Source: Sphingomonadaceae bacterium 3R27C6 (lineage in GTDB: Bacteria; Pseudomonadota; Alphaproteobacteria; Sphingomonadales; Sphingomonadaceae). From it: a DNA stretch of 64,000 nt. Every line of letters begins with the position of its first letter. Positions within the stretch are counted from its first letter, which is position 1. The position numbers and the translations under genes are program-made. This document shows, one piece after another, positions 46,069-59,664 of the stretch. Location of the stretch: positions 217,001-281,000 of the forward strand of contig SCNS01000003.1 of the NCBI GenBank assembly GCA_005503215.1, given 5' to 3'. The notes under the pieces were generated by a model. That model was not told the origin of the DNA, searched no databases, and saw only the letters and a program-made list of their open reading frames with translations.

Positions 46069-49020
46069 TTACATCGAGATACCCATGCCGCGTCCACGCC
46101 CGAGATATTGCTGGAGATCATGAGACAGCGTTTTCCCTCTCACAGCGTCTAAACCCAGCTGAGCGCGGCGATTCTGCAGCAGCGACTCGAGCTGCGGGTC
46201 GCGGTGCAGGCTCTTCACCATGTCGTTGAGGTTGGCGCGCGCCTCGTCGCGCGCGGCATAGGTTGGCGCCTTGCGCGCCTGCGCGCTTTCCTTCTTCCAC
46301 GCGGCGACGAACAGCTCGGCGCGCTTCTCGGTCTCGGCGGCGAGCCGGACGCGATCGCGTGCCGCGCGTTCGGCTGCTGCTCTTTCTGCAACACGGGCCG
46401 CGTCTCGGCGGCCCATCGCCGCCATCGCGCCCGCGGTCCGCCCCTCCGCCGCGTCGTTCGTAAGCTCATAGCTCTTCCCGAACGCTTCGCGCAGATCATT
46501 CGCGCCCCCGGGGCGGAGCGCATCGAGTTCCGCCCGGGCCTTGCGATAGGCGTCGATCTCGTGCGGCAACTCCTTGCCGCCGGCGCGCCGGATATCGACG
46601 ATCTGCTTCGTGATGCCCGCGAAGCGCTCGACCGCCTTGTCGAGCGGGGAGCGCGACAAGTTGGCATCGATCGACCGGGCGCTGATGCGGACCTCGGCAA
46701 ACTTGACCGGGCGCGTCCGTTCGGGCGTCGCGGGATCCGGCAGCTCGCGCGAGACACCCAGGTTCAGTCCGTCGAAGATGCCCCGCTTGGGCTCGGTAGA
46801 CTTCGCGGGTGCCGGAACCCGATAGTCGCTTGCCATGTCTTTGCCGCGCTCGCGCGAGGCGGCGCGCACGAGCTTGTTCTGGGTCGCAAAATCGTCGCGG
46901 CCATAATATAAATCCACCTGCTCGCGATGCCTGGACAGCGCGACGTAAGTCGAGTGGCTGTCTACCCCCGGCGTCGCGAGCACCTGAACCCGATCGACGG
47001 TCATGCCCTGCGCCTTGTGGATCGTCGCGGCATAGCCGTGCTCGACATGGGCGTAATCTTTAAGGTCGAACGTCACACTGCGCCCGTCGTCGAGCATCAC
47101 CGCCATGCGCATGCGGTCGACATTCTGGACGGTCCCGAGCGACCCGTTCTTCACGCCCATACCGCGCTCATTCTGCAGGAACATGACGCGATCCCCCTCA
47201 GCGAACCCGCGCTCGCCGCGCTCGACGGTAAGAGTGATTTCATTGCCGAGCGCACCGCTCGCCTTCAGGCAATCGCGAACTTCTTCGTTGAGAGCGCGCA
47301 CCTCGTCATTGGTGTGGGTCAGGATGATTCGGCTGGCGTCCGGATGATGCTGGCGATCACGATCCCAGGCATCCACCAGCTCGACACGCGCGGCCTCGCG
47401 GGTATCGGAGGCGTGGACAAATCCCGCGTCGGCATAGCGACCGATTGCATCACCGGTCCGGCCCGTTGCGAGTTCGCGCGTCGCCTCGCGCTGCCAGTCC
47501 TCCTGCTGCCGCCGGATATCCACAATCTCGACGGCGCCGTGGCGTTCGGCGACAGACCGGAACGCTGCTCCGGCCTCGATCGCCTGGAGCTGCTGCGGAT
47601 CACCGACCAGCACGGCCTTGGCGCCCTGCCGCTCGGCTTCGGACACAACGCGCTCGAGCTGGCGCGTACCAACCATGCCTGCCTCGTCGATCACGAGGAT
47701 ATGCTTGTCGGTCAGCCGATCACGATCCTGACCCCAAGCATGTTCGAGACTGGCGAGCGTCCGCGAGCCGATGCCCGAGCCATGTTCAAGCCCCTCGGCG
47801 GCAATGCCCGAGAGCGCTGCGCCCTGCACATGATAGCCCGCGGCCTCCCAAGCTTCGCGCGCGACACCCAGGATCGCGCTCTTCCCCGTCCCGGCATAAC
47901 CAATGACGTTACTGACACCGCGTGCGGATGTGACGTGCTCGACCGCGGCGCGCTGTTCGGCGGAGAGATCGAGACCGCGCTCCCATGCACGCGACAAGGC
48001 AAGTTCGCGATGACGATCGGCAACGCCGTGATGACGCCGCGCATCAAGCGTCGCGGTCGCGCGTTCGAGCCGCTGCTCGGTCTCGATCATTGATCGCGAA
48101 GTGAACCGATCCTCCCTGCGCCCGTCTTGGCCGAGCGCGACGAGGTCGGGCGAGGATTTGATTGCCGCCATCGCAGCATCGAACTGCACCTTTCCGTCGC
48201 TGTGTCGGTGCACGAACATCGCAAGATCACGGGTTGTGAAAGTCGCCTGCCGGCGCGTGATCGCGTCGAGCGCGATCTCGGGATGGGCGAGGATCTTGTC
48301 GCCGTTCGACCGCGCGATCTCAAGATGCTCGGCGAGCCGATCGGCTTCGAGCCCCTGCCCCGCCATGCGCGATGCGGCAGGACCGATTTTATGCTGCGGT
48401 TCGAGGTCGATGCCCTGCACTTCCAGGGTCCGATGATCGACGCGCGCGTCGATATCGAGCTCGGCCAAGCGGGCGTTCACATGATCTGCCCAGGCTTCGC
48501 GCCAATGAGTCAAAAGCTCGGTGCGGTTCCAGTCGCGAACCTTGGCGCCGAACTCGGCGCTGCCCTCCTCACCAATGCGGATCTCGCGCATCGTCAACAT
48601 GACATGCGCGTGCGGCCGCGCCAGCCCATCGGCGCCGATATCCCAATGGATATTGAGGTCGGCGATCATGCCGCGATCGACGAACACGGCTTGCACAAAA
48701 TCACGAGCCAGCGCGATGCCCTCTGCCTCGGTCATCTCGCGCGGGATCGCGAACTCGATCTCGCGCGCGAGCTGCGCGTCCTTGCGAAGCTCGGCCGCCT
48801 CGACATCGTTCCAGAGTTGCTCGCGATCCGTCCAGCGTTCGTCGGCACCGTCGGGCAGCAGCACCTCGCTGTGCACCACGCCCGCCTTGTTCGAGAAATC
48901 ATGGCTGCGACCAAGCCGCTCGTCGTGGAGGCGGTCGGCCGAACGATAGGCCGCGGCGGCGACGGCGCTGCTGCCAGCGGCGCGGGAAATGACTTTTGCC
49001 GAGAAATGATAGATCGCCAT
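46069..49020 (-). CDS. traA: Ti-type conjugative relaxase/helicase TraA
   Basis: 983 residues from the ATG at 49020 (MAIYHFSAKVISRAAGSSAV), the standard MobA/MobL start. MOBQ relaxase domain: Tyr in AAAAYRSADRL and the metal-binding HAH in ARPHAHVMLTMREI. A RecD/TraI-like helicase follows: Walker A GYAGTGKSAIL, Walker B ILVIDEAGMVG, VLVGDPQQLQAIEAG, and HKAQGMTVDRV with ALSRHREQV. It nicks oriT, which lies just before its own start, and unwinds the transferred strand. The C-terminal 250 residues are variable. Intact. Confidence 0.93.
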   Translation of the reverse strand: MAIYHFSAKVISRAAGSSAVAAAAYRSADRLHDERLGRSHDFSNKAGVVHSEVLLPDGADERWTDREQLWNDVEAAELRKDAQLAREIEFAIPREMTEAEGIALARDFVQAVFVDRGMIADLNIHWDIGADGLARPHAHVMLTMREIRIGEEGSAEFGAKVRDWNRTELLTHWREAWADHVNARLAELDIDARVDHRTLEVQGIDLEPQHKIGPAASRMAGQGLEADRLAEHLEIARSNGDKILAHPEIALDAITRRQATFTTRDLAMFVHRHSDGKVQFDAAMAAIKSSPDLVALGQDGRREDRFTSRSMIETEQRLERATATLDARRHHGVADRHRELALSRAWERGLDLSAEQRAAVEHVTSARGVSNVIGYAGTGKSAILGVAREAWEAAGYHVQGAALSGIAAEGLEHGSGIGSRTLASLEHAWGQDRDRLTDKHILVIDEAGMVGTRQLERVVSEAERQGAKAVLVGDPQQLQAIEAGAAFRSVAERHGAVEIVDIRRQQEDWQREATRELATGRTGDAIGRYADAGFVHASDTREAARVELVDAWDRDRQHHPDASRIILTHTNDEVRALNEEVRDCLKASGALGNEITLTVERGERGFAEGDRVMFLQNERGMGVKNGSLGTVQNVDRMRMAVMLDDGRSVTFDLKDYAHVEHGYAATIHKAQGMTVDRVQVLATPGVDSHSTYVALSRHREQVDLYYGRDDFATQNKLVRAASRERGKDMASDYRVPAPAKSTEPKRGIFDGLNLGVSRELPDPATPERTRPVKFAEVRISARSIDANLSRSPLDKAVERFAGITKQIVDIRRAGGKELPHEIDAYRKARAELDALRPGGANDLREAFGKSYELTNDAAEGRTAGAMAAMGRRDAARVAERAAAERAARDRVRLAAETEKRAELFVAAWKKESAQARKAPTYAARDEARANLNDMVKSLHRDPQLESLLQNRRAQLGLDAVRGKTLSHDLQQYLGRGRGMGISM

Positions 49021-49049
49021 GGCGGCCATCCATTTACAGCAAAACGAGC

Positions 49050-49077
49050 ACGTCGGCACGACGTATAAGCGCGCCCT
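49050..49077. other. Origin of transfer (oriT) with hairpin and nic region
   Basis: Between divergent traA and traC. A perfect inverted repeat ACGTCG-GCA-CGACGT (49050-49064) is followed by ATAAGCGCGCCCT (49065-49077). The Ti-plasmid and RSF1010 nic regions as I remember them read CGACGTATAA-NN-GCGCCCT and TAAGTGCGCCCT; the same words with the same spacing occur here. Location and neighbours are as in Ti-type transfer regions. Confidence 0.75.
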
Positions 49078-49192
49078 CACACGATTTCATCGCGCTCGGG
49101 ATCACAGCTTCTCACAAGATTTCAGCTACTTGAATGACGTTGAGACACGGCATAGCTGGTTCGTCCGCCCCACTTGAACGGAAGGACAGACG

Positions 49193-50681: not shown

Positions 50682-51617
50682 CTATTCTGGCGGCAGTCGC
50701 CCAGCCGTGCGGCGAAGCTGTTCGAGCCGCTCCGAACAAATGGCATGCACGACCCGCCCGAGTTCTTCGACGCGCGCCCCAAGCCAGCGCAATTCCTCTT
50801 CGGTGATGCGGTAGTGCTTCGAGTAGCGCGCCTTCACATAGGCTTCCTTGAGCTTCTCGAAGTGCCTGCGATCCGATTTCAGTTCGCGCGGCCAAACATC
50901 GACGAGCCGCATATCAAGGCGTTCTGCCTGGGTACGCAGAAAGCCCAGATTGTGGACATGCGGCGTGTAGAAGGTGCAGACCAGAAGAACGCCGTGATAG
51001 AGGCTCTCCGTGCCCTGATGTAGAAGAAACGCCGCTTTCTTCCAGTCTCGTTCTTCCAAATAGAAGCGGTATCCTTTTAGGAAACTCGCTGCGCCGGGTA
51101 TCCACTCATCAAAATACTCCTGCGCCATGTCGAGCGCCTCATCGGGCGTCTTTGGCTTGGGCTTGTGCAATTCCTTGTCATCGAATTCGTAGAGCGCGAC
51201 ACCGTCCCTCGCGATGTCCATGAAGAAATAGCGGCCATGCGCGAGCCCGTCGTTCACTTCCTGCATGGTGTGGATAATGAGGTTGACGGGCGTGTGGAGC
51301 GTCTTGTCGATCGCCAGCTCGCGGTCCAAACGATCCTCGATCTTGGGCCAAAACTCGACCTTGTCAGTGAGGCGCTTGTCGCTCACAATAATGAGCAGAT
51401 CGAAGTCGGAACGATAGCCCTTGGCGGTGTGCGGCTCGTCGACCCAGCCGCCGCGCGCATAGCTACCGTACAGGATGATCTTGTCGATCCGGCCCTTCTT
51501 CTTCCAACTCATCGTCGCGAGCGCGATGTTGTCGGCAAATTCCTCGAAGATGATCTGCTTCACCCGCTCGAGTTCGCGCTGCTTGTTCGCCGGAAGGTGA
51601 TCGAGGTCGGTACGCAT
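50682..51617 (-). CDS. Nucleotidyltransferase (MNT)-HEPN fusion protein
   Basis: 311 residues. N-terminal MNT domain (about 1-135): KIILYGSYARGGW is the GSxxxG motif and SDFDLLIIV the acidic DxD motif. C-terminal HEPN domain (about 160-300): AFLLHQGTESLYHGVLLVCTFYTPHVHNLGFLR and KARYSKHYRI with Arg and His in the RNase position. HEPN-MNT pairs are usually two-gene toxin-antitoxin systems in which MNT AMPylates the HEPN RNase; here both are in one chain. It follows a 17-base-pair hairpin after the sigma-like gene. Defence or element maintenance is likely (inference). Confidence 0.75.
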   Translation of the reverse strand: MRTDLDHLPANKQRELERVKQIIFEEFADNIALATMSWKKKGRIDKIILYGSYARGGWVDEPHTAKGYRSDFDLLIIVSDKRLTDKVEFWPKIEDRLDRELAIDKTLHTPVNLIIHTMQEVNDGLAHGRYFFMDIARDGVALYEFDDKELHKPKPKTPDEALDMAQEYFDEWIPGAASFLKGYRFYLEERDWKKAAFLLHQGTESLYHGVLLVCTFYTPHVHNLGFLRTQAERLDMRLVDVWPRELKSDRRHFEKLKEAYVKARYSKHYRITEEELRWLGARVEELGRVVHAICSERLEQLRRTAGRLPPE

Positions 51618-51677: not shown

Positions 51678-51926
51678 CTAAAGCCGGAATCGCCACCACC
51701 ATGGATCCTTTTCGTCCATGGCGGTCATGAGGACGCGAAGCGCGCCCGCAAAATGCCATTCGACGTCGGTAACCGTGATGCCGAACCGCTTCGCGATTTC
51801 GGAATAGCTCATTTCCTCGACGCGGATGGCGAGGAAGACCTTGCGGTCCATCTCCTCCATCCGGTCAACGGCGCGCTCGGCGCGCCAGAGTTGCAGCCGT
51901 TCCTCGCGGGACATGCGCGCGCTCAT
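51678..51926 (-). CDS. Small sigma-70 region 4-like DNA-binding protein
   Basis: 82 residues from the ATG at 51926, overlapping the ardC stop. After a helical segment, DRKVFLAIRVEEMSYSEIAKRFGITVTDVEWHFAGALRVL is a region-4/LuxR-type HTH (sense helix, turn G-I, recognition helix). No region 2, so it is not a full sigma factor. Probably a regulator or accessory protein of the ardC operon. Confidence 0.75.
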   Translation of the reverse strand: MSARMSREERLQLWRAERAVDRMEEMDRKVFLAIRVEEMSYSEIAKRFGITVTDVEWHFAGALRVLMTAMDEKDPWWWRFRL

Positions 51927-52816
51927 TTCTGCGATCCCGCGAAGGTGAGCAGATAATCGCTCGCCTTGCTCGCCGCACTCGCGGCACGGAAGATCGCCTT
52001 TTCGTCGTCCCGGAGCACCGACAGCCAAGAACCGATATAGTCCGCATGCCGGACGGTCGGCGCAATGCCGAGCGAGGCGCAGGTGAAAGCCGCCGCCATC
52101 TCGGCGACAAGCTCTTCCTTGGCGTAGGCCTCCGACCCGAACCCGCCTTTCTGGTCGCGATCCAAACGGCTGCCATGGCCCGTCCAGTGACCAAGCTCAT
52201 GAAGCGCGGTGCGGTACCAGTTCACCGGTTCGTGGAACGCGGCCTGCGGCGGCACCTGCACAAAGTCGTGGCTCGGGCTGTAAAAAGCCTCGCCGCCGCC
52301 GATCTGGAAGCGCGCCCCGCTTGCGGCGATCAGCCCATCGGCCTCGACAATCGCCAGCACCAAATCGGGGCTGACCAAGGGGGCGATGAAATCGTCGGGC
52401 AGTCCCTCGCACTGGTCGACATTGAACATGACAAAGCGCTTGAGGAACGCGACCTGCCGCGCCTCGCGATCCTCGCCGCGCGCGGCCTCGGCTTCGGCCT
52501 TGGGCGTGAACCGGTCGGCGTAGCAAATGACCGTGCCCTTCTCGCCGCGCCGGACATTGCCGCCCGCCGCGTCGGTCTGCCGGTACGTGAGCCAGCGCTG
52601 CGAGGCATAGCCTCTCGCAATACCTTCGGCCCACAGAATCAAAATATTGATGCCGGAATAGCGCCGAGCAGTTCCCGCGTTCTGGGGCATCGTGCATCCG
52701 CACGCCGCGCTGTCCCACGGCTGCACCCAAGGCAGCCGTCCTTCCTCCAGCTCGGCGATGATCCGGTTGGTGACCTCCGAATAGAGGCTCGCCCTCTCGA
52801 TTCGTTCTTTGCGCAT
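51923..52816 (-). CDS. ArdC-like antirestriction protein with zincin metallopeptidase domain
   Basis: 297 residues from the ATG at 52816 with AGGAGAAAGGAT upstream. N-terminal ssDNA-binding domain (ELEEGRLPWVQPWDS, RRYSGINILILW, GNVRRGEKGTVICYADRF) and a C-terminal zincin with HELGHWTGHGSRLDR (HExxH) and the third ligand Glu in KEELVAEMAAAF. ArdC proteins protect incoming plasmid DNA from restriction. The 5' leader contains the structured repeat described at 52920. Confidence 0.9.
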   Translation of the reverse strand: MRKERIERASLYSEVTNRIIAELEEGRLPWVQPWDSAACGCTMPQNAGTARRYSGINILILWAEGIARGYASQRWLTYRQTDAAGGNVRRGEKGTVICYADRFTPKAEAEAARGEDREARQVAFLKRFVMFNVDQCEGLPDDFIAPLVSPDLVLAIVEADGLIAASGARFQIGGGEAFYSPSHDFVQVPPQAAFHEPVNWYRTALHELGHWTGHGSRLDRDQKGGFGSEAYAKEELVAEMAAAFTCASLGIAPTVRHADYIGSWLSVLRDDEKAIFRAASAASKASDYLLTFAGSQK

Positions 52817-52919
52817 ATCCTTTCTCCTTCCAGCCACCGCACCCCGGCCCGGAAGGGGGCGGAGAAGGGCGGCAGGAGGGAGCCGGCAGACCCGCATCAT
52901 CGGCCGGGCTGCATCCGGA

Positions 52920-52955
52920 GGACCGGAACGAAGTGGCGGACCCGCGGAACGCGGG
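52920..52955 (-). repeat. Structured leader element, copy A (upstream of ardC)
   Basis: Core GGACCGGAACGAAGTGGCGG plus A (52920-52940) is followed by the perfect hairpin CCCGCG-GAA-CGCGGG (52941-52955) and TTGCGGCC. The core starts 104 bases from the ardC ATG. The surrounding bases 52817-53290 are GC-rich, have no credible gene, and contain more hairpins, e.g. GGCCGTC-GCG-GACGGCC at 53124-53140. Matching copies precede DUF736 and parB. Confidence 0.6.
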
Positions 52956-53326
52956 TTGCGGCCCGGCCGGGCGGGGCTAAGGCGAGTGACGCCCGCCTCC
53001 GCCCCCGCAGCGCCGGGGATATCTCACGCCGCCGCGACGCGGCGACCGCATGCCCGCCAGCGGCGCCTTCCCAATGCGACTCGGGTAACGCCGCGCCGTG
53101 ATCGGCGCGTCATTTCAGGACGCGGCCGTCGCGGACGGCCTCATTCTCCGAGTTCGACACGCAGGGCGAGACGCAGTGAGAAAAATATCTGCGCTTACGC
53201 CATCAGCCGCCACAGACACCCAGGGACGCCGGCGGATGCCGGCGACCCTACGCCAGCGTGCGACACGATAAATGTCGCTTTTCTGCGGTGTTGACTTAGG
53301 GCGCGACGTTCCCCTTCTATCATCTC

Positions 53327-53336
53327 ACGTCGACGT
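53327..53336. promoter_or_regulatory. Palindrome in the alpA promoter region
   Basis: ACGTCGACGT, a perfect 10-base palindrome 31 bases before the alpA-like ATG, in the only less GC-rich part of this gap (TTGACT at 53291 and TATCAT at 53318 are -35/-10-like but 21 apart, which is too far for a standard promoter). Confidence 0.35.
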
Positions 53337-53366
53337 ATGATCCCCCAACATATGGAGTAACAGAGC

Positions 53367-53600
53367 ATGGCATATCAGTCTCCCTTACGCATGATGCGCC
53401 TTGATGAAGTCCTGGCCCTCACCGGTCTCAGCCGCGCGACCCTCTACCGCAAGATCGCGTCCGGTACCTTTCCGACGCAGCACAAGCTCGCGGAGCGGTG
53501 CTGCGGCTGGCGCGCCGGCGACGTCGACATCTGGCTCCGCAATCCGGTCACCTTCACCCTCGCCGACCTCAAGCGCGACGAAGATCGCGACGCCGCCTGA
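53367..53600 (+). CDS. AlpA-family helix-turn-helix regulator/excisionase
   Basis: 77 residues. RLDEVLALTGLSRATLYRKIASGTFPTQHKL is the AlpA/HTH_17 motif, and WRAGDVDIWLRNP the second helix that packs on it. AlpA proteins activate P4-type integrase/excision genes or act as recombination directionality factors. It is the only plus-strand gene in this part, converging on DUF736 with a strong hairpin between. Confidence 0.85.
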   Translation: MAYQSPLRMMRLDEVLALTGLSRATLYRKIASGTFPTQHKLAERCCGWRAGDVDIWLRNPVTFTLADLKRDEDRDAA

Positions 53601-53614
53601 AACGCACGGCAAAG

Positions 53615-53640
53615 CCCCGCGCCGCATCTGCGGCGCGGGG
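53615..53640. terminator. Hairpin between alpA and DUF736 genes
   Basis: Perfect 11-base arms CCCCGCGCCGC/GCGGCGCGGGG with loop ATCT. On the minus strand it is followed by CTTTGCC, a weak T-run; on the plus strand by none. Likely terminates the convergent transcripts. Confidence 0.7.
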
Positions 53641-53652
53641 TGGAAGCCCGCC

Positions 53653-53976
53653 TCAGTCGGCGGGGTTCCAGATGAGGGCGTAGCCGTCCTCGCCATCCTG
53701 CCCGGCAGCGCGGCCCAGGTTGGCGTAGAGTCGGCGCGGTCCGAACTCGGGAGCGGCGAGGCTCAGCGACACATAAGGTTCGCCCGACACCTGTCCGACG
53801 CGGATCCAGCCGGCACCGATCTCGACGCCTTCGGAATAAACCCGGTAGTCGGGCTGGACGTCGCCGCTCTTCGAGCGGTTGGTCCGGATTTCGATCGCCG
53901 CGCGGATCGAGAGGGTTTTCAGTTGGCCCACGAAGCCCTGTTCGATGGTGCCGTTCACAAAGCCGATTGCTGCCAT
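53653..53976 (-). CDS. DUF736-family protein
   Basis: 107 residues from the ATG at 53976 with AAGGAG upstream. IGFVNGTIEQGFVGQLKTLSI, YRVYSEGVEIGAGWIRVG and YVSLSLAAPEFGPRRLYANLG are the family motifs. DUF736 genes sit with ardC and parB in many alphaproteobacterial plasmids and ICEs; the function is not established. Copy B of the structured leader element lies upstream. Confidence 0.9.
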   Translation of the reverse strand: MAAIGFVNGTIEQGFVGQLKTLSIRAAIEIRTNRSKSGDVQPDYRVYSEGVEIGAGWIRVGQVSGEPYVSLSLAAPEFGPRRLYANLGRAAGQDGEDGYALIWNPAD

Positions 53977-54063
53977 TGGTCGTCTCCTTAGATTACCGCG
54001 GGACCATCCCTGCGGCATGGGCGGACCAAGGACCGGCGCATGAGGTGACCCGCGAACCTGCAA

Positions 54064-54164
54064 GGGCCGCAGCGAAGCGGAGGAGTGCGGCGGCGCAATT
54101 ATTTGAAGCGAAGCGGCCGCGAGGAGACTGCGCAGCAGTCGGGGAAATAATCGCGCCGCCGCAC
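54064..54164 (-). repeat. Structured leader element, copy B (upstream of DUF736), with nested hairpins
   Basis: Core GGGCCGCAGCGAAGCGGAGG plus A (54064-54084), then 20-base arms at 54085-54104 and 54145-54164 (one G-T type mismatch) that include GTGCGGCGGCGC and GCGCCGCCGCAC. Inside the loop a second AGCGAAGCGG...AGGA is followed by GACTGC-GCA-GCAGTC (54126-54140). The core starts 88 bases from the DUF736 ATG. Confidence 0.6.
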
Positions 54165-54533
54165 TTTTGCGGGGCGCCGCGCCGGTCCAGGTCAAATCGC
54201 CCGTCGCCGGGGATGGTTCTGCAGGTCTTGTGGAGCGAGCCAGTGCTATCGACCGGAACGATCAAACCTTGCAATCAGAGTGGGAAAAGCGATTTTATGG
54301 CGCTTTCGCTCGCGGTCGTAATGGCGAAGGAAATAATGCACCGGCGGTTCACGGGGCCCATCCTCCGCTTCCGCAGGCAAGAAAATCATGCTGGAGGCAT
54401 ACGATTTGGCGTTTTCGTACAATTCAGGCGCTATTACCGAAATTATCGGGCTCGCCAACTTCCGTCCGGGCTTGACGACTAGCGACCCCGGCAAGTCAGG
54501 ATGGTGGGGCGAAGGATGCAGCATCCTCGTATG

Positions 54534-54571
54534 GGCGGCGCGAAGGCAACTTCGCGTCGCCTCTTTCTTTT
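54534..54571 (+). terminator. Rho-independent terminator on the plus strand
   Basis: 12-base-pair stem GGCGGCGCGAAG (54534-54545) / CTTCGCGTCGCC (54550-54561) with loop GCAA, one G-U pair, followed by TCTTTCTTTT. It implies a plus-strand transcript upstream, although no plus-strand gene is recognised between 54165 and 54530. Confidence 0.65.
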
Positions 54572-54625
54572 GGCCGAGCCGCGCGTCGGCGCCGCTTGCG
54601 GCGGCGGCGCGCTCAAAGCATGAAC

Positions 54626-54700
54626 GCCGCGCCGGCCAACCAGGCCGGCGCGTCAATTTGCGCCCGCAGAAAATGTGGCGGGCGACCGAAGCCGCCCGCC
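54626..54700. terminator. Two hairpins after parB
   Basis: CGCGCCGGCC-AACCA-GGCCGGCGCG (54626-54650) and GGCGGGC...GCCCGCC (54677-54700). Read on the minus strand, the second lies just after the parB stop and is followed by ACATTTTC, so it is a plausible terminator for parB. Confidence 0.55.
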
Positions 54701-54706
54701 GTCATT

Positions 54707-56482
54707 TCATGCTGCCAACGGCTGTGCGTCTTCCGCATCGGGTTCGGGCGCTGCCGGAGCCGCAAGCTCGTGCGCGACCCGCCGCGCCGATTTGACGCTG
54801 CCAACCCCGCCCCGCGTCGTGTAGGCCGAAGGCGGGAATGCCATCCACTGCGGCACCCACGGCTCGGCCTTGGCCCGACCGTTGGCCCCTTCAAGGCAAT
54901 CGGCGACAATGGCCTTCAGCGCCTTCCCCTTTTCTCCGGCGTTCGCTGCGGCAACCTCCGGTCCCGCCACCTCGCCGACGATGGCGAGCAACACTTCGCG
55001 GTCGCGAAGCTGGTCGAAGAAGGCCGCATCCGCCGACCAGTGCTGACGCATGTCGGTGCCGAGATGGAGCCCGATCACCTCGACGGCCTCGCTTCCCGCC
55101 TGCAACGTCTCGCCCATGACGATCGCCACGATCTCCAGCACCACCGGATCGGGGAGTTCGAGCAGCCGCGCGAACAACGGGGCAAAAGGGGGACGGTTCA
55201 GCGGCCTTCCCGTGACGGTCGGCGCTTCCTCGTCGAAGCCGAGTACGCCAAGCACCGCGCGGCGCCTGAGATCGAATGCCGTCTCGGCGGAACAGGTTTC
55301 GACGCTCTCGGCAATATCCTCTTTCGGCGCGCGCTGGCTCTCGACATCGACGCGCCACAAGTCCGCACCCGCGACCACATGCGCGAGCATCGCCCGCAGC
55401 GCGACGCCGCCATGCCCTGCAAGATCGGCGCGCACCGCCGCATGGCGATGAAGGTCGATATAGGCATTGAGCGGACCCGACACTTCTGGACGAACAGGCT
55501 TGGCCATGACGGCATCGCCGTCCTCGCTCCCGCTGCCGCCGGAAAGCCGTTTCGCTTCCTTGGTGGTGACGAAGCCTTCGTGGAAGCTCACCTCGCCGCT
55601 CTCGCGAACCTCGACATAGATGCGGCCGCCCTTGCGCTTGCCCGCATGGGCATAATCCCACGACCGGAACCAGTCGCCGCGCGCCATGATGACGACATCG
55701 GACCATCCCGCTGCGAGATAGTCCGCCTTGCGCGCCTCGATGGCCGCCATCTGCGCCGACCAGAAAGCATCGGCGTCGGCAAAGAAGCTGTCTTCGCCAA
55801 ACAGGTCGGACACGACAGCGAGCTTCGCATTTTCGGCATCGAACAGGGCATGCTTGACCGCGATAGCCGTACCGCCGAACAGCCACGCCTTGAGCTGATG
55901 GCCGGTCGGGCAATAAGCCCCTTCATCATCGAACAGCGCCAGCCATGCCTTCTGCTGGCTTTTCGATGCGAGGGTCAGGTGACGCACCGTGCCCGCATCG
56001 ATCTCGCCACCGCGATAGAGGGTGCGGATGCGGGGGAGCAGATTGCCGAGCGCGAGAATGCGCCTCACCGCGCGCGGCTCGAACCCGAAGCTGTCGGCGA
56101 CATCCTCGACGCTGCGCCCAGCCTTCACGAGCGCGACGAACGCTTCCCACTGGCTGACTTCGTCGGGTTGCACCCGCGCGAGATTTTCGAGCATCGACGC
56201 TTCGAGCGCATCGGCATCATCGCCCTCGTTGAGAATGGCGCAGGGAATGGGCCGTACCGCCCCGCCCTCGCGCGCCACGGCGCCCACGGCGGTAAAACGC
56301 CGACGTCCCGCGACGATCTCGTAATGGCCCTCCGAGCAGTTCGGGCGAACGAGCAGCGGAACCAGCACCCCGCGCGCGCGGATGCTCGGCATAAGGTCTG
56401 CAACATCGGGGTCTTTCCCCTTCCCGCGCATATTGGCGGCTGCGATGGACAGGTTGCCCAGTTCAATGAAATCCAACTTCAT
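54707..56482 (-). CDS. ParB/RepB-family partition-like protein, large plasmid/ICE type
   Basis: 591 residues from the ATG at 56482. N-terminal ParB/Srx nuclease-like fold: IRARGVLVPLLVRPN, YEIVAGRRRFTAVGAV and SMLENLARVQPDEVSQWEAF; then an HTH (SVEDVADSFGFEPRAVRRILALGNL). The long C-terminal part (about residues 200-590) is typical of the large ParB-like proteins encoded beside ardC and DUF736. No parA partner is adjacent, so chromosome/plasmid partition is uncertain; DNA binding is secure. Confidence 0.85.
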   Translation of the reverse strand: MKLDFIELGNLSIAAANMRGKGKDPDVADLMPSIRARGVLVPLLVRPNCSEGHYEIVAGRRRFTAVGAVAREGGAVRPIPCAILNEGDDADALEASMLENLARVQPDEVSQWEAFVALVKAGRSVEDVADSFGFEPRAVRRILALGNLLPRIRTLYRGGEIDAGTVRHLTLASKSQQKAWLALFDDEGAYCPTGHQLKAWLFGGTAIAVKHALFDAENAKLAVVSDLFGEDSFFADADAFWSAQMAAIEARKADYLAAGWSDVVIMARGDWFRSWDYAHAGKRKGGRIYVEVRESGEVSFHEGFVTTKEAKRLSGGSGSEDGDAVMAKPVRPEVSGPLNAYIDLHRHAAVRADLAGHGGVALRAMLAHVVAGADLWRVDVESQRAPKEDIAESVETCSAETAFDLRRRAVLGVLGFDEEAPTVTGRPLNRPPFAPLFARLLELPDPVVLEIVAIVMGETLQAGSEAVEVIGLHLGTDMRQHWSADAAFFDQLRDREVLLAIVGEVAGPEVAAANAGEKGKALKAIVADCLEGANGRAKAEPWVPQWMAFPPSAYTTRGGVGSVKSARRVAHELAAPAAPEPDAEDAQPLAA

Positions 56483-56583
56483 GACGTTCTTCCTTCTCTC
56501 TTCAACCACACCCGGCCCCGGACGGCGGGGCGGGCGGCGAGAAAAGGCGACGGGACCGCGCCAAAGGACGGCGCGCACCCGCA

Positions 56584-56621
56584 GGGCCGCAACAAGGTGG
56601 AGGAGCCGGGCAACGCCCGGC
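56584..56621 (-). repeat. Structured leader element, copy C (upstream of parB)
   Basis: Core GGGCCGCAACAAGGTGGAGG plus A (56584-56604), then the perfect hairpin GCCGGGC-AAC-GCCCGGC (56605-56621) and TTGCGCACC. The core starts 102 bases from the parB ATG. Copies A and C also share CACCC, CGGCCC and GAGAA segments between core and start codon. Confidence 0.6.
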
Positions 56622-56756
56622 TTGCGCACCGGCCGAGCGGTCCCATAGCCTTGCGCCGACTGCCACGCTGTCCAAGGCCGGCAAACTCGGCAACGCCGCC
56701 GTGCGGACAGCGCGGAGTCACCATCGGACAACAGACGCGCCCTTGGCGAAGCCGCA

Positions 56757-57321: not shown

Positions 57322-58233
57322 CTAGCGGGCGCCCCGATTTATCTTTACTGCCGCGATGATGTCCTTCGCAAATTGCCGCAGTCGCGTGTTCTCCGGAACG
57401 GGGATATCGTTACCGTGCTCGTCGCTCGGCTCGCAGCGATCTCTGATGAGGTCCATGACCTTGGTTTCGGCGCGATATTCGTCCGGATCGATCGCACGGA
57501 GAGCAGGGTGCTCGATCACGGCCAGCAGCATTGCCTCATAATCATATTCCTTCGGACGCCCTCCGCTGCTGGGCCGCACTTTGAGCGCGCGGATGATGTC
57601 TTCCGGTTCGGCATCAACATAGATCTGAGCGCTGAACCAGAAGCCATGCGGTGGGAGCACAATCGCTCGGTCGCTGGCGACTTCGGATAACAGCAAGCCG
57701 CGCAGCCGTCCGTAAAAGTGGCGGCGATGGACCGCGCGCCTCCTGCCCCTCCGGTCGTAATAATAGGCTGCAGGCGCGGTGCGGCGACCGAGATAGTCGA
57801 AGAGCTTCTCGAGCGTTTCGACGGTTGAGCGGCGGCTATTACCGTAGATGGGCGTTCGCTTTTTCTCGGCGATCCCCAATCCGTATTGGAAATGCCGCCA
57901 GTACCCCGCGACGCAGGCCGCGATCGCGAGCAGGGAGATCGCCGCAATAGAAGCGGCCTGACCGGTGTCATCTCCATTCAATGCCGCGGCGCCCCAAACG
58001 ACCAGAACGAGCAACAAAAGCAGAATGCAGAGCAGGAATGATGTCGCCAGGACCAAGAAACGGCGCCTGATCGCGCGCTCGGTGGCGACCGCGACGCGGT
58101 CGAGCTCTTTTAACCCCAGCTCCTCCTTGTCCTTGGCATATAAGAGACGGGCGGCAATCCGCGCGAGGCTCCGATGTGCATCGGCCGACCGATGCCAAAT
58201 GCCGGGCGGGGCTGAGGTCTCGGCGACGGGCAT
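57322..58233 (-). CDS. Unrecognised membrane protein next to the integrase
   Basis: 303 residues. A cytoplasmic helix (LARIAARLLYAKDKEELGLKE), two adjacent membrane helices (FLVLATSFLLCILLLLLVLV and AASIAAISLLAIAACVAGYW), then a soluble domain with AAYYYDRRGRRRAVHRRHFYG and SEVASDRAIVLPPHGFWF. AAGGAGG lies 6 bases before the ATG, an excellent ribosome site, although the first 124 bases overlap the end of the integrase gene in another frame. No family recognised; association with an integrase suggests defence cargo (inference). Confidence 0.7.
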   Translation of the reverse strand: MPVAETSAPPGIWHRSADAHRSLARIAARLLYAKDKEELGLKELDRVAVATERAIRRRFLVLATSFLLCILLLLLVLVVWGAAALNGDDTGQAASIAAISLLAIAACVAGYWRHFQYGLGIAEKKRTPIYGNSRRSTVETLEKLFDYLGRRTAPAAYYYDRRGRRRAVHRRHFYGRLRGLLLSEVASDRAIVLPPHGFWFSAQIYVDAEPEDIIRALKVRPSSGGRPKEYDYEAMLLAVIEHPALRAIDPDEYRAETKVMDLIRDRCEPSDEHGNDIPVPENTRLRQFAKDIIAAVKINRGAR

Positions 58234-59426
58234 CGATTTCCTCCTTCACGCAGATCGTCGAGATAATCGCTCCACCATTGGGCCATTTCGACGCGTTCGG
58301 CCCAATAGGCTGACTGATTGTAAATACGACGTATTGTGCCGCCGACCGCGTGCGCAAGTGCCCGTTCGATTGCGTCGGGATTCCAGTAGCCCGATTCGTT
58401 GAGAAGCGATGATGCCGAGGTCCGAAAACCGTGCGCCGTCATCTGGTCCTTGGGTATCCCCATTCGCCGCAGCGAAGCGTTCAGCGTGTTGTCGCTGATG
58501 GGCCGCGACCGCGTGCGAACCGACGGGAATACATATTGGCCGGAGCCCGACAGAACCCGCATGTCGGCAAGGATCGCCAGAGCCTGCCGCGAAAGAGGCA
58601 CGGCATGGGGCTGGCGCATCTTCATCTTGGCTTCCGGGATGGTCCACACCGCCTTGTCGAAATCGATTTCGCGCCATTCCATCTGGCGCATCTCGCCGGG
58701 GCGCTGGAAAAGATGGGGGATGAGCCTCAAAGCCGTCATAACGGCTGGGTCGCCTTGATAATCGTCGATTGCACGCAGCAACCCGCCAAATGCCACCGGA
58801 TCGGTGATCGCGGCAAAATGCTTTACCTTTGGGATCGTCAGCGCACCGATCAACAAGTGCGCAGGGTCGCGGTCAGCGCGCGCGGTTGCCACGGCGTAAC
58901 GGAAAACACGACTGACGAACGACCGCAGCAGATTTGCTGTTTCCAGCCGACCCCGGCGCTCATGCTTGCGCAGTTCATGCAAAATCTCATGTGGCGTGAT
59001 GTCGGCGATGGGACGCCTACCGAATTCAGGACCGAGCAGCTTTACGAACCAACGCATCTTTTTAAGCGTTGGCGCGGCCAAACCTTCGCGGGTTTTCTTC
59101 TGGATCAGATCGTCGGCCACATGCGCGAAACTGTTGCGAGCGCGCACGGCCGCTTCAATTCTCGCCTCCCGCTTGGTGAAGTTTGGATCGATCGAATGCG
59201 CGACCTGCTTGCGGGCGGCGTCACGTGCCTCCCGCGCCTCGGCCAAACTGATCTCGGGATAAGAGCCGAGTGCCAACTTCCGCTCGACCCCATTGATGCG
59301 ATATTTCACCCGCCACAGCTTACTGCCGCTCGGGTTGACCTGAAGGTACAGACCTTTCGCATCCGCTACCTTGTAGGGCTTTTCTCTTGGCTTGGCGTGT
59401 CGGATCGACGCATCGGTCAGAGCCAT
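58110..59426 (-). CDS. P4-type tyrosine integrase
   Basis: 438 residues from the ATG at 59426. N-terminal DUF4102 arm-binding domain (LTDASIRHAKPREKPYKVADAKGLYLQV, RKLALGSYPEISLAEAREAR) and a C-terminal recombinase domain with the catalytic R (RPGEMRQMEW), HxxR (TAHGFRTSAS), late His (LAHAVGG) and Tyr (RRIYNQ). The last about 40 residues are Arg/Pro-rich extension overlapping the next gene. It faces a tRNA-Cys gene 165 bases away, the usual target of this group. Confidence 0.93.
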   Translation of the reverse strand: MALTDASIRHAKPREKPYKVADAKGLYLQVNPSGSKLWRVKYRINGVERKLALGSYPEISLAEAREARDAARKQVAHSIDPNFTKREARIEAAVRARNSFAHVADDLIQKKTREGLAAPTLKKMRWFVKLLGPEFGRRPIADITPHEILHELRKHERRGRLETANLLRSFVSRVFRYAVATARADRDPAHLLIGALTIPKVKHFAAITDPVAFGGLLRAIDDYQGDPAVMTALRLIPHLFQRPGEMRQMEWREIDFDKAVWTIPEAKMKMRQPHAVPLSRQALAILADMRVLSGSGQYVFPSVRTRSRPISDNTLNASLRRMGIPKDQMTAHGFRTSASSLLNESGYWNPDAIERALAHAVGGTIRRIYNQSAYWAERVEMAQWWSDYLDDLREGGNRCPSPRPQPRPAFGIGRPMHIGASRGLPPVSYMPRTRRSWG

Positions 59427-59492
59427 TTGGGGGCCTCGCAAATTTGGGGGCCTCGGCTGCCCCAAAAAAAGCCCCCAACAGCCATAATTACG

Positions 59493-59524
59493 GGCAATCA
59501 GAGACCATCACCGGCAATCAGTGA
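59493..59524. repeat. Direct repeats between integrase and tRNA (candidate arm sites)
   Basis: GGCAATCAGAGA (59493-59504) and GGCAATCAGTGA (59513-59524) are 20 bases apart, start to start. A second pair, TTTGGGGGCCTCG, occurs twice in 59426-59460 around the integrase start. Such short repeats beside the attachment site are typical of integrase or excisionase arm binding. Confidence 0.5.
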
Positions 59525-59590
59525 ATGTCCCATAACTAGCAGAAAACCGGGGGTTTTTCAACCATCAGCAACCGTCTGCTGACAGGGTAT

Positions 59591-59664
59591 TGGAGGCCCG
59601 AGCCGGAATCGAACCGGCGTGCACGGATTTGCAATCCGCTGCGTCACCACTCCGCCATCGGGCC
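59591..59664 (-). tRNA. tRNA-Cys(GCA), CCA encoded
   Basis: Acceptor arms GGCCCGA and TCGGGCC pair fully; anticodon stem-loop CGGATTGCAAATCCG gives anticodon GCA; T-arm GCCGGTTCGATTCCGGC; discriminator U73 followed by CCA, as expected for tRNA-Cys. Its 3' end points to the integrase, so this is the attachment site of the element to the left. No second copy of the 3' end is visible in the window. Confidence 0.95.

Follow-up and report, generated by a model that had tools for sequence, protein, structure and literature searches.

A covarying hairpin element upstream of ardC, DUF736 and parB genes in alphaproteobacterial conjugative elements, with a fold that fits the transferred DNA strand

The leading-region genes of the F plasmid are expressed from single-strand promoters, Frpo1 and Frpo2, which fold into stem-loops and rebuild canonical -35 and -10 boxes (PMC9849209). 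Promoters of this kind are established for F and ColIb-P9 and have been proposed for other plasmids (PMC9849209, PMC11541004), and the anti-defence genes of leading regions are oriented for transcription off the entering strand (PMC11541004). In R388, ArdC is required in the recipient and not in the donor (PMC7213743). The promoter hairpins of phage N4 need a C-G closing pair and a loop with G first and A last (PMC4496689), and DNA mini-hairpins of the GCGAAGC type are described as extraordinarily stable (PMC10527192). This report concerns an element with a conserved core and a covarying fold that stands before the ardC, DUF736 and parB genes in a 64,000-nucleotide stretch of Sphingomonadaceae bacterium 3R27C6 (assembly GCA_005503215.1, contig SCNS01000003.1, positions 217,001 to 281,000), hereafter the window.

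We lean towards reading the element as a single-stranded-DNA control site of alphaproteobacterial integrative and conjugative elements (ICEs) and conjugative plasmids, from which entry genes would be transcribed before the second strand is made. Its fold fits the transferred DNA strand better than it fits an mRNA, and it is therefore probably a switch by which genes are read before the DNA becomes duplex. It may best be regarded as the alphaproteobacterial counterpart of Frpo, the chances that it acts as a promoter being about evenly balanced. What the sequence comparison supports is a family of elements with a predicted common fold, covariation, a bias towards the gene-antisense strand and a consistent orientation to the putative origin of transfer (oriT).

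Within the window, the 21-base core occurs three times on the plus strand, at 52920-52940 (copy A, before ardC), 54064-54084 (copy B, before DUF736) and 56584-56604 (copy C, before parB), as the initial annotation of this DNA had reported. All three genes are coded on the minus strand, so the motif as first described lies on the strand antisense to them. The distance from core to start codon, first given as 88-104 bases, is near that range and differs in detail, at 106 bases for ardC, 87 for DUF736 and 101 for parB. A hairpin had also been placed directly after each core, and all three were found on the plus strand: CCCGCG-GAA-CGCGGG with its GNA triloop at 52941-52955 in copy A, a 20-bp inner stem with arms at 54085-54104 and 54145-54164 in copy B, and GCCGGGC-AAC-GCCCGGC, with a non-GNA loop, at 56605-56621 in copy C. 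The sequence TTGCG 3' of the hairpin is likewise shared by copies A and C. The hairpins exist, yet each is merely the tip of a fold of 170-232 nt that ends upstream of its gene. On the plus strand, which would be the one transferred, copy A (52842-53018) forms one long imperfect hairpin that stops short of the ardC start, copy B (53995-54226) is an inverted repeat forming a long imperfect hairpin around its 20-bp inner stem, and copy C (56512-56681) again forms a long imperfect hairpin. Their minimum free energies (MFEs) on this strand are -70.5, -84.7 and -64.3 kcal/mol against -62.2, -76.6 and -56.7 on the gene strand, a difference of about 8 kcal/mol in each. The cores themselves contain a small structure, namely the mini-hairpin A-C-GAA-G-T in copy A, the sequence GCGAAGC in copy B and a mini-hairpin with the non-GNA loop AAG in copy C. 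Taken alone, the first half of the motif has five matches in the window where shuffled sequences lead one to expect 2.8, which is not above chance, and the second half has four against 0.93 expected (0 of 100 shuffles).

Beyond the window, a pattern scan of genome contigs gave at least 117 loci; because CGCAA, CTTCG and Y at position 13 are set by the pattern itself, they do not count as independent evidence. In the resulting alignments the hairpin first noticed is stem P2, which joins the 10-bp stem P1, the short hairpin P3 and the core in a three-way junction. Beyond P1 the fold continues with another stem, P0, then an internal loop and finally an outer stem, and the far arm of this outer stem stops a short way before the ribosome site. 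The junction strand GGCCGNARCGAAGYGGAGGA is highly conserved and contains the mini-hairpin. The proposal that the hairpins are kept by compensatory change is borne out, and covariation is evident throughout the fold. Across 24 aligned copies, 92.3% of cells are paired, 12 of the 20 inner pairs have changed on both sides, and double-change cells number 57 against 16.6 in shuffled alignments (0 of 500 shuffles as high); when the partner is slid by 1-3 columns, pairing falls to 35-44%. In 39 aligned copies, Watson-Crick cells number 409 in the outer stem (364.8 ± 4.5 shuffled), 233 in P0 (183.4) and 335 in P1 (278.2). The 89 loci compared have 64 different P2 sequences; the pair counts are 408 Watson-Crick, 2 G-T, 11 A-C and 12 other, 7 of the 11 A-C cells coming from two DUF736-type loci (L053 and L126) that have no true P2 there. 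Among the 117 matches listed, core positions 7 and 13 are A-T in 51, G-C in 46 and T-T in 20. When each arm was compared with swapped arms, the ardC elements gave a significant result (z -6.1, n=55); this test mixes relatedness with covariation, and the column tests were used instead. The arm test and the cluster alignments are based on 93 loci, after 6 of the 117 without full flanks and 18 redundant ones had been dropped. Four chance-like loci (L034, L054, L082 and L131) were excluded from the P1, P2, triloop and tRNA counts and kept in the gene-partner counts.

Two other explanations of the core were tried and rejected. In one frame the core reads SS[AST]S[LF]R, as a leader peptide might; since positions 7 and 13 covary and the flanking hairpins vary freely in length, the coding explanation was dropped on inspection. 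Pairing of CGCAA with the core UUGCG breaks down where the core bases differ.

Variants of the architecture were also observed. Elements of the DUF736 type (53995-54226 in the window, and loci L125, L126, L133, L012 and L015) have a longer P2 with a partly AT-rich stem, and in them a second inner hairpin is followed by a TCCTCGCG-like stretch that partially repeats the core. The ardC elements of Rhizobiales, which make up clusters 13 and 14 of the alignments, have a conserved hairpin, GGCCGCGATNGGCGCGGCC, just before the ribosome site; because it shares bases with the outer stem's 3' arm, the two look mutually exclusive.

The main result concerns which strand folds, a question approached through wobble pairs, folding energies and loop sequences. 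Wobble pairs were counted by one reference sequence and by shared pairs, and RNAalifold structures were not used alone for this purpose because each favours its own strand. Over the outer stem, P0 and P1 of the 39 copies, there are 10 G-T cells on the gene strand where shuffled alignments have about 47. A-C cells, equivalent to G-T on the opposite strand, number 46 (about 68 in shuffles), and the remaining mismatches 131 (about 223 in shuffles). P1 in the 78 loci with a recognisable right arm has 51 A-C and 19 G-T cells, 15 of the A-C cells being at a position that the scan pattern fixes on one side; for comparison, the 179 pairs of eight tRNAs taken from the element loci include 15 G-U and no A-C. 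In a sample of 37 sequences, chosen as every second one of 73, the gene-antisense strand has the lower MFE in 36 with DNA parameters and in 29 with RNA parameters, and the differences exceed those of shuffled sequences (-5.6 vs -2.0; -6.7 vs -1.1). The same strand is favoured by RNAalifold in five of six clusters, and it folds better in 15 of 19 loci found by a covariance model. As regards loops, closed P2 triloops are GNA on the gene-antisense strand in 41 of 62 and on the gene strand in none, P3 triloops are GNA on the gene-antisense strand in 40 of 50, and among triloop hairpins with stems of at least 5 the GNA counts are 34 on the gene-antisense and 1 on the gene strand. GNA loops occur in 23 of the 39 distinct P2 hairpins, and C-G closes 21 of those 23. 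The triloop of the core mini-hairpin is GNA in 13 of 15 parsed model hits, with G and A kept and the middle base free; the other 4 of the 19 model loci did not fit the parsing pattern. UNCG tetraloops in RNA correspond to T-N-C-G on the gene strand and could mimic the GNA signal for P3; the arms of P2, by contrast, are symmetric around three bases. A structure of single-stranded DNA is thus well supported by the aligned sequences. Where the initial annotation had spoken of a shared RNA or DNA element, the sharing stands and the choice narrows, the strand evidence pointing to transferred-strand DNA rather than to an RNA leader.

The position of the elements relative to a possible oriT points the same way. 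After cleavage, the relaxase MobA remains on the 5' end of CCCT. In RSF1010, MobA cleaves TAAGTGCG/CCCTCCC (PMC4814116), and the window has a nic-like site with one mismatch, TAAGCGCGCCCT, at 49066-49077 on the plus strand just upstream of traA, which is a putative oriT. By count alone this site is not above chance. Similar sites lie at the corresponding place upstream of traA or traC in five related loci, and pTiC58 has the nic-like TAATTGCGCCCT between traC and traA. From the polarity of the site, the transferred strand would be the plus strand, running into the three elements, and it would carry them in the folded sense and as the template of their genes. A leading-side position, with the genes pointing at the nic-like site, was found in six of six related modules and in pTiC58. 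In all nine plasmid records with a MobA/MobL relaxase over the cut-off, the element (in the gene-strand sense) and the relaxase gene are on the same strand; the element is about 5-18 kb upstream of the relaxase in eight of them and 67 kb upstream in the ninth (W12). Co-orientation also holds for the seven records that have only the other relaxase family and in which core or BLAST located the element, and for W03; in 4 of the 21 records neither relaxase family was detected. The element was placed by BLAST only in W14 and W17 and by the model only in W03.

Further ICEs and plasmids of Alphaproteobacteria carry the element too, pTiC58 among them. In the genome from which the window comes, the whole motif with up to two mismatches has 17 matches (6 exact) against 5 for a reversed-pattern control, and the same trio of elements is found on two further contigs (C16 and C31), with single copies elsewhere. 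The exact core of 20-21 bases, in gene-strand sense, is present in 6 of 99 genomes of the family and in 4 of 289 of the class, counts that both include the own genome, and the control gave no matches; the core is therefore no common genomic repeat, the possibility that the initial annotation had named as fatal to its proposal. Among 80 titles listed from the scan, four belong to other groups (L034, L045, L082 and L094) and three give Proteobacteria or Pseudomonadota only; the remainder we take to be Alphaproteobacteria from the genera that they name. The next gene on the expected strand, among the 117 matches listed, is ardC in 65, DUF2493/YAcAr in 18, parB in 8 and DUF736 in 5; 16 are unclustered open reading frames (ORFs), some of them miscalled, and 5 matches have no called ORF. 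Genes for sigma-70 region-4-type proteins stand directly behind the element in loci L014 and L076. The association with mobile-element genes is accordingly upheld for ardC, DUF736 and parB, and the set is wider than first described, taking in DUF2493/YAcAr and sigma-70 region-4 genes. With three elements as BLAST queries, plasmid records containing similar DNA numbered 106, 12 and 425, and of the last set 302 are typed as conjugative.

The covariance model has 67 positions and was built from 24 loci other than the window copies, all of long-P2 types, after 11 short-P2 sequences had been removed from alignment A2. Its search serves as a check made without the scan pattern, though the 24 training loci came from the scan. 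A search of this kind had been suggested at the outset, and it recovers two of the window copies in full, copy A at 52903-52967 (73.2 bits, E 6.3e-14) and copy C at 56567-56633 (69.3 bits, E 5e-13), and copy B in part, at 54056-54100 (E 0.0014). Matches occur in 15 of 289 class genomes including the own genome. The 14 other genomes contain 15 matches; in 11 of these the gene immediately downstream, on the expected strand, is ardC, DUF736, parB or YAcAr, in the other 4 it is not, and at least one match (L197) shares its protein start with a scan locus (L052). In pTiC58, two exact cores both lie before DUF736 genes; the model matches a site before ardC with E 9.5e-7, and both DUF736 copies reach just 0.024.

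As a mechanism, it is envisaged that the core-bearing strand would enter the recipient first and fold so that each gene has one long imperfect hairpin before it. Each hairpin would end in a three-way junction of P1, P2 and P3, whose short hairpins, mostly d(GNA)-capped, are expected to resist single-strand-binding protein (SSB). Such a folded site might offer RNA polymerase a double-helical landing place, perhaps together with an element-encoded factor, and the entry gene downstream (ardC, DUF736, parB, DUF2493/YAcAr or sigma-4) could then be transcribed before a complementary strand exists. Second-strand synthesis would abolish the hairpin, and expression would drop. That the strand folds in vivo and resists SSB, that it recruits the polymerase, and when it does so are inferences. 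A more specific version, in which the tertiary-like junction tip with its mostly d(C-GNA-G) hairpins is itself the recognition signal and is read on the entering strand, without canonical boxes, by RNA polymerase plus the element-encoded sigma-region-4 protein, so that alphaproteobacterial ICEs and Ti and symbiosis plasmids would have a dedicated entry-transcription system, seems unlikely, and help to the polymerase from the sigma-region-4 protein is only a guess.

Several observations weigh against a single-stranded-DNA control site. Inspection of alignments and folds by eye, with no scan run, revealed no conserved -35/-10 pair in the stems, and a canonical sigma-70 box pair was rejected as a candidate on that ground. 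The A-C cells are down to 0.67 of their count in shuffled alignments, a drop similar to that of other mismatches, and so appear tolerated rather than favoured; a count restricted to pairs that the predictions for both strands share puts A-C only modestly above G-T (35 vs 21). RNAalifold favours the gene strand for cluster 14 (-37.6 vs -31.4), and the strands are nearly even for cluster 13. The flanks also show an excess of GNA on the same strand, weaker than that of the elements (89 vs 45), copy C before parB has a GNA loop in P3 alone, and the R/Y pair of the core becomes A-A on the antisense strand in 20 of the 117 matches listed. The arm test was not significant for YAcAr (z -1.3, n=11), parB (z +0.4, n=8) or DUF736 (z -1.4, n=5). 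Co-orientation with the relaxase is weak evidence alone because the modules are related, and among the plasmid records W18 has its relaxase upstream of one element copy and W14 has a transposase in place of the gene behind the element.

Other explanations account for parts of this evidence. If the RNA of the gene strand folded, the element would be a structured 5' mRNA leader, a riboregulator or attenuator controlling translation or termination. In 96 of the 117 matches listed it does lie 5' of a gene from the four families, within a narrow range of distances, the covariation would fit either strand, and cluster 14, with an alternative hairpin beside the ribosome site, folds better on the gene strand. 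However, the tolerance of wobble pairs expected on a transcribed strand is not seen, less clearly so in clusters 13 and 14: G-U is depleted on the gene strand, with G-T making up 2 of 433 P2 pairs where local tRNAs have 15 G-U in 179. Folding energies and triloops prefer the opposite strand and no Rfam family matches, which leaves an mRNA leader quite improbable. A single-strand initiation (ssi) site, at which primase or RNA polymerase would prime the complementary strand without promoting the gene, is also an unlikely account, even though folded single-strand sites of this size act in priming and a primase gene adjoins three of the DUF2493 copies. The F Frpo is said, in a 1997 title by Masai and Arai cited in PMC11541004, to have both priming and promoting roles. 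In the genome of the window, however, there are three elements per module in three modules, each with a gene of its own, and a place directly before each start codon is more than priming alone would need.

A site acting in double-stranded DNA, either as a cruciform extruded by supercoiling, as in the early promoters of phage N4, or as an operator for an element-encoded regulator, would agree with the loops, which obey the N4 rule of C-G closing, G first and A last (PMC4496689), and the folding strand is the template strand of the gene. Against this, the strand preference spans the whole fold and not just one small hairpin, and no N4-type polymerase was found among the 11 module proteins scanned with Pfam, with no further search made; we consider such a site rather implausible. 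Least probable by far is a dispersed palindromic repeat of the repetitive extragenic palindrome (REP) or miniature inverted-repeat transposable element (MITE) kind, without function for the gene. Chance matches to the core do occur in two REP-like chromosomal repeats of a single genome of the same family (L020 and L023), which are not the element. The low frequency of the exact core among the genomes, and the presence of the four gene families next in line in 96 of the 117 matches listed and in 11 of the 15 model matches, already contradict this explanation. The L020 and L023 repeats are palindromes, CCTCCCC..GGGGAGG, that hold the core sequence by chance.

Compared with the Frpo and ssi single-stranded promoters of F and ColIb-P9, the element resembles them in being a long imperfect hairpin that ends at a leading-region gene, in having genes that point to oriT with the transferred strand as template, and in gene content (anti-defence, ParB family and SSB); F itself has ssb and a ParB-family gene in a matching layout. 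The long stem-loop upstream of the gene is predicted on the transferred strand, with cluster 14 preferring the gene strand, and the leading-region location with the gene pointing to oriT has one exception (W18). The element differs in showing no visible -10/-35 boxes, in standing as one copy per gene, in its three-way junction with d(GNA) hairpins and conserved 20-nt core, and in its GC-rich alphaproteobacterial hosts. With no pair of boxes conserved to the eye, it is not classed as Frpo. The presumed Frpo2 and Frpo1 regions of F (upstream of ssb and of the ORF at 64032), when compared by fold and not aligned, show little difference between strands, and neither of these two folded regions has a GNA triloop hairpin. 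The promoters of the N4 virion RNA polymerase share with the element a template-strand DNA hairpin with a C-GNA-G triloop, a feature not found in every copy here (the window parB copy has it in P3 only); they consist of one small hairpin read by a phage enzyme, whereas the element is a 200-nt fold with several such hairpins and has no known cognate polymerase. In the single-strand origins (sso) of rolling-circle plasmids and in IncQ ssi sites, a folded single strand is recognised by polymerase or primase. Such sites share the folded single strand with the element and are not known to be placed before genes. The heptamer d(GCGAAGC) is exactly the core mini-hairpin of the G/C variant, known as a physical property and tool and found here within a conserved genetic element. 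The statement that no element like this had been described agrees with the titles and abstracts listed in searches of the open full-text literature, subscription papers lying outside the search, and with Rfam.

How the leading genes of Ti and symbiosis plasmids and of alphaproteobacterial ICEs are switched on at entry found no answer among the literature matches listed. What the comparison supplies for testing this is an element that can be defined, a covariance model for it and exact sites, of which pTiC58 has two; ArdC is the commonest client (65 of 117 matches listed). Transcript-start tables for Agrobacterium fabrum C58 have been published (PMC10469942, File S1). If the proposed reading is true, a natural DNA structure would have been selected for its d(GNA) triloops.

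The genes around the element in the window, all on the minus strand, include ardC (51923-52813), coding for an antirestriction single-stranded-DNA-binding protein with a zincin domain (Pfam ArdcN 9e-39, MPTase-PolyVal 1e-52), and a gene for an 82-aa protein with only sigma-70 region 4 (51678-51926; PF08281, 39.5 bits), whose start overlaps the ardC stop codon. The DUF736 gene lies at 53653-53976 (PF05284, 1.3e-23), the parB-like gene at 54707-56482 (ParB_N, 1.9e-11), and the gene for the traA-type relaxase, with MobA/MobL and helicase domains, at 46069-49080 (MobA_MobL, 9.7e-70), its true start being probably near 49020 rather than at the called ORF start. The module also codes for a MucR-type regulator, an AlpA-type protein and an integrase adjoining a tRNA gene, and from the relaxase, ArdC, DUF736, ParB, MucR-type and AlpA-type proteins and the integrase beside the tRNA it is read as an integrated conjugative element. 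With the 4227 models of Rfam 15, the tRNA is the sole match in the window at gathering scores. At 58110-59664 the integrase immediately adjoins the tRNA gene, a probable attachment site of the mobile element. A further module protein, coded at 50682-51617 on the minus strand, unites nucleotidyltransferase and HEPN domains and may belong to a defence or toxin-antitoxin system.

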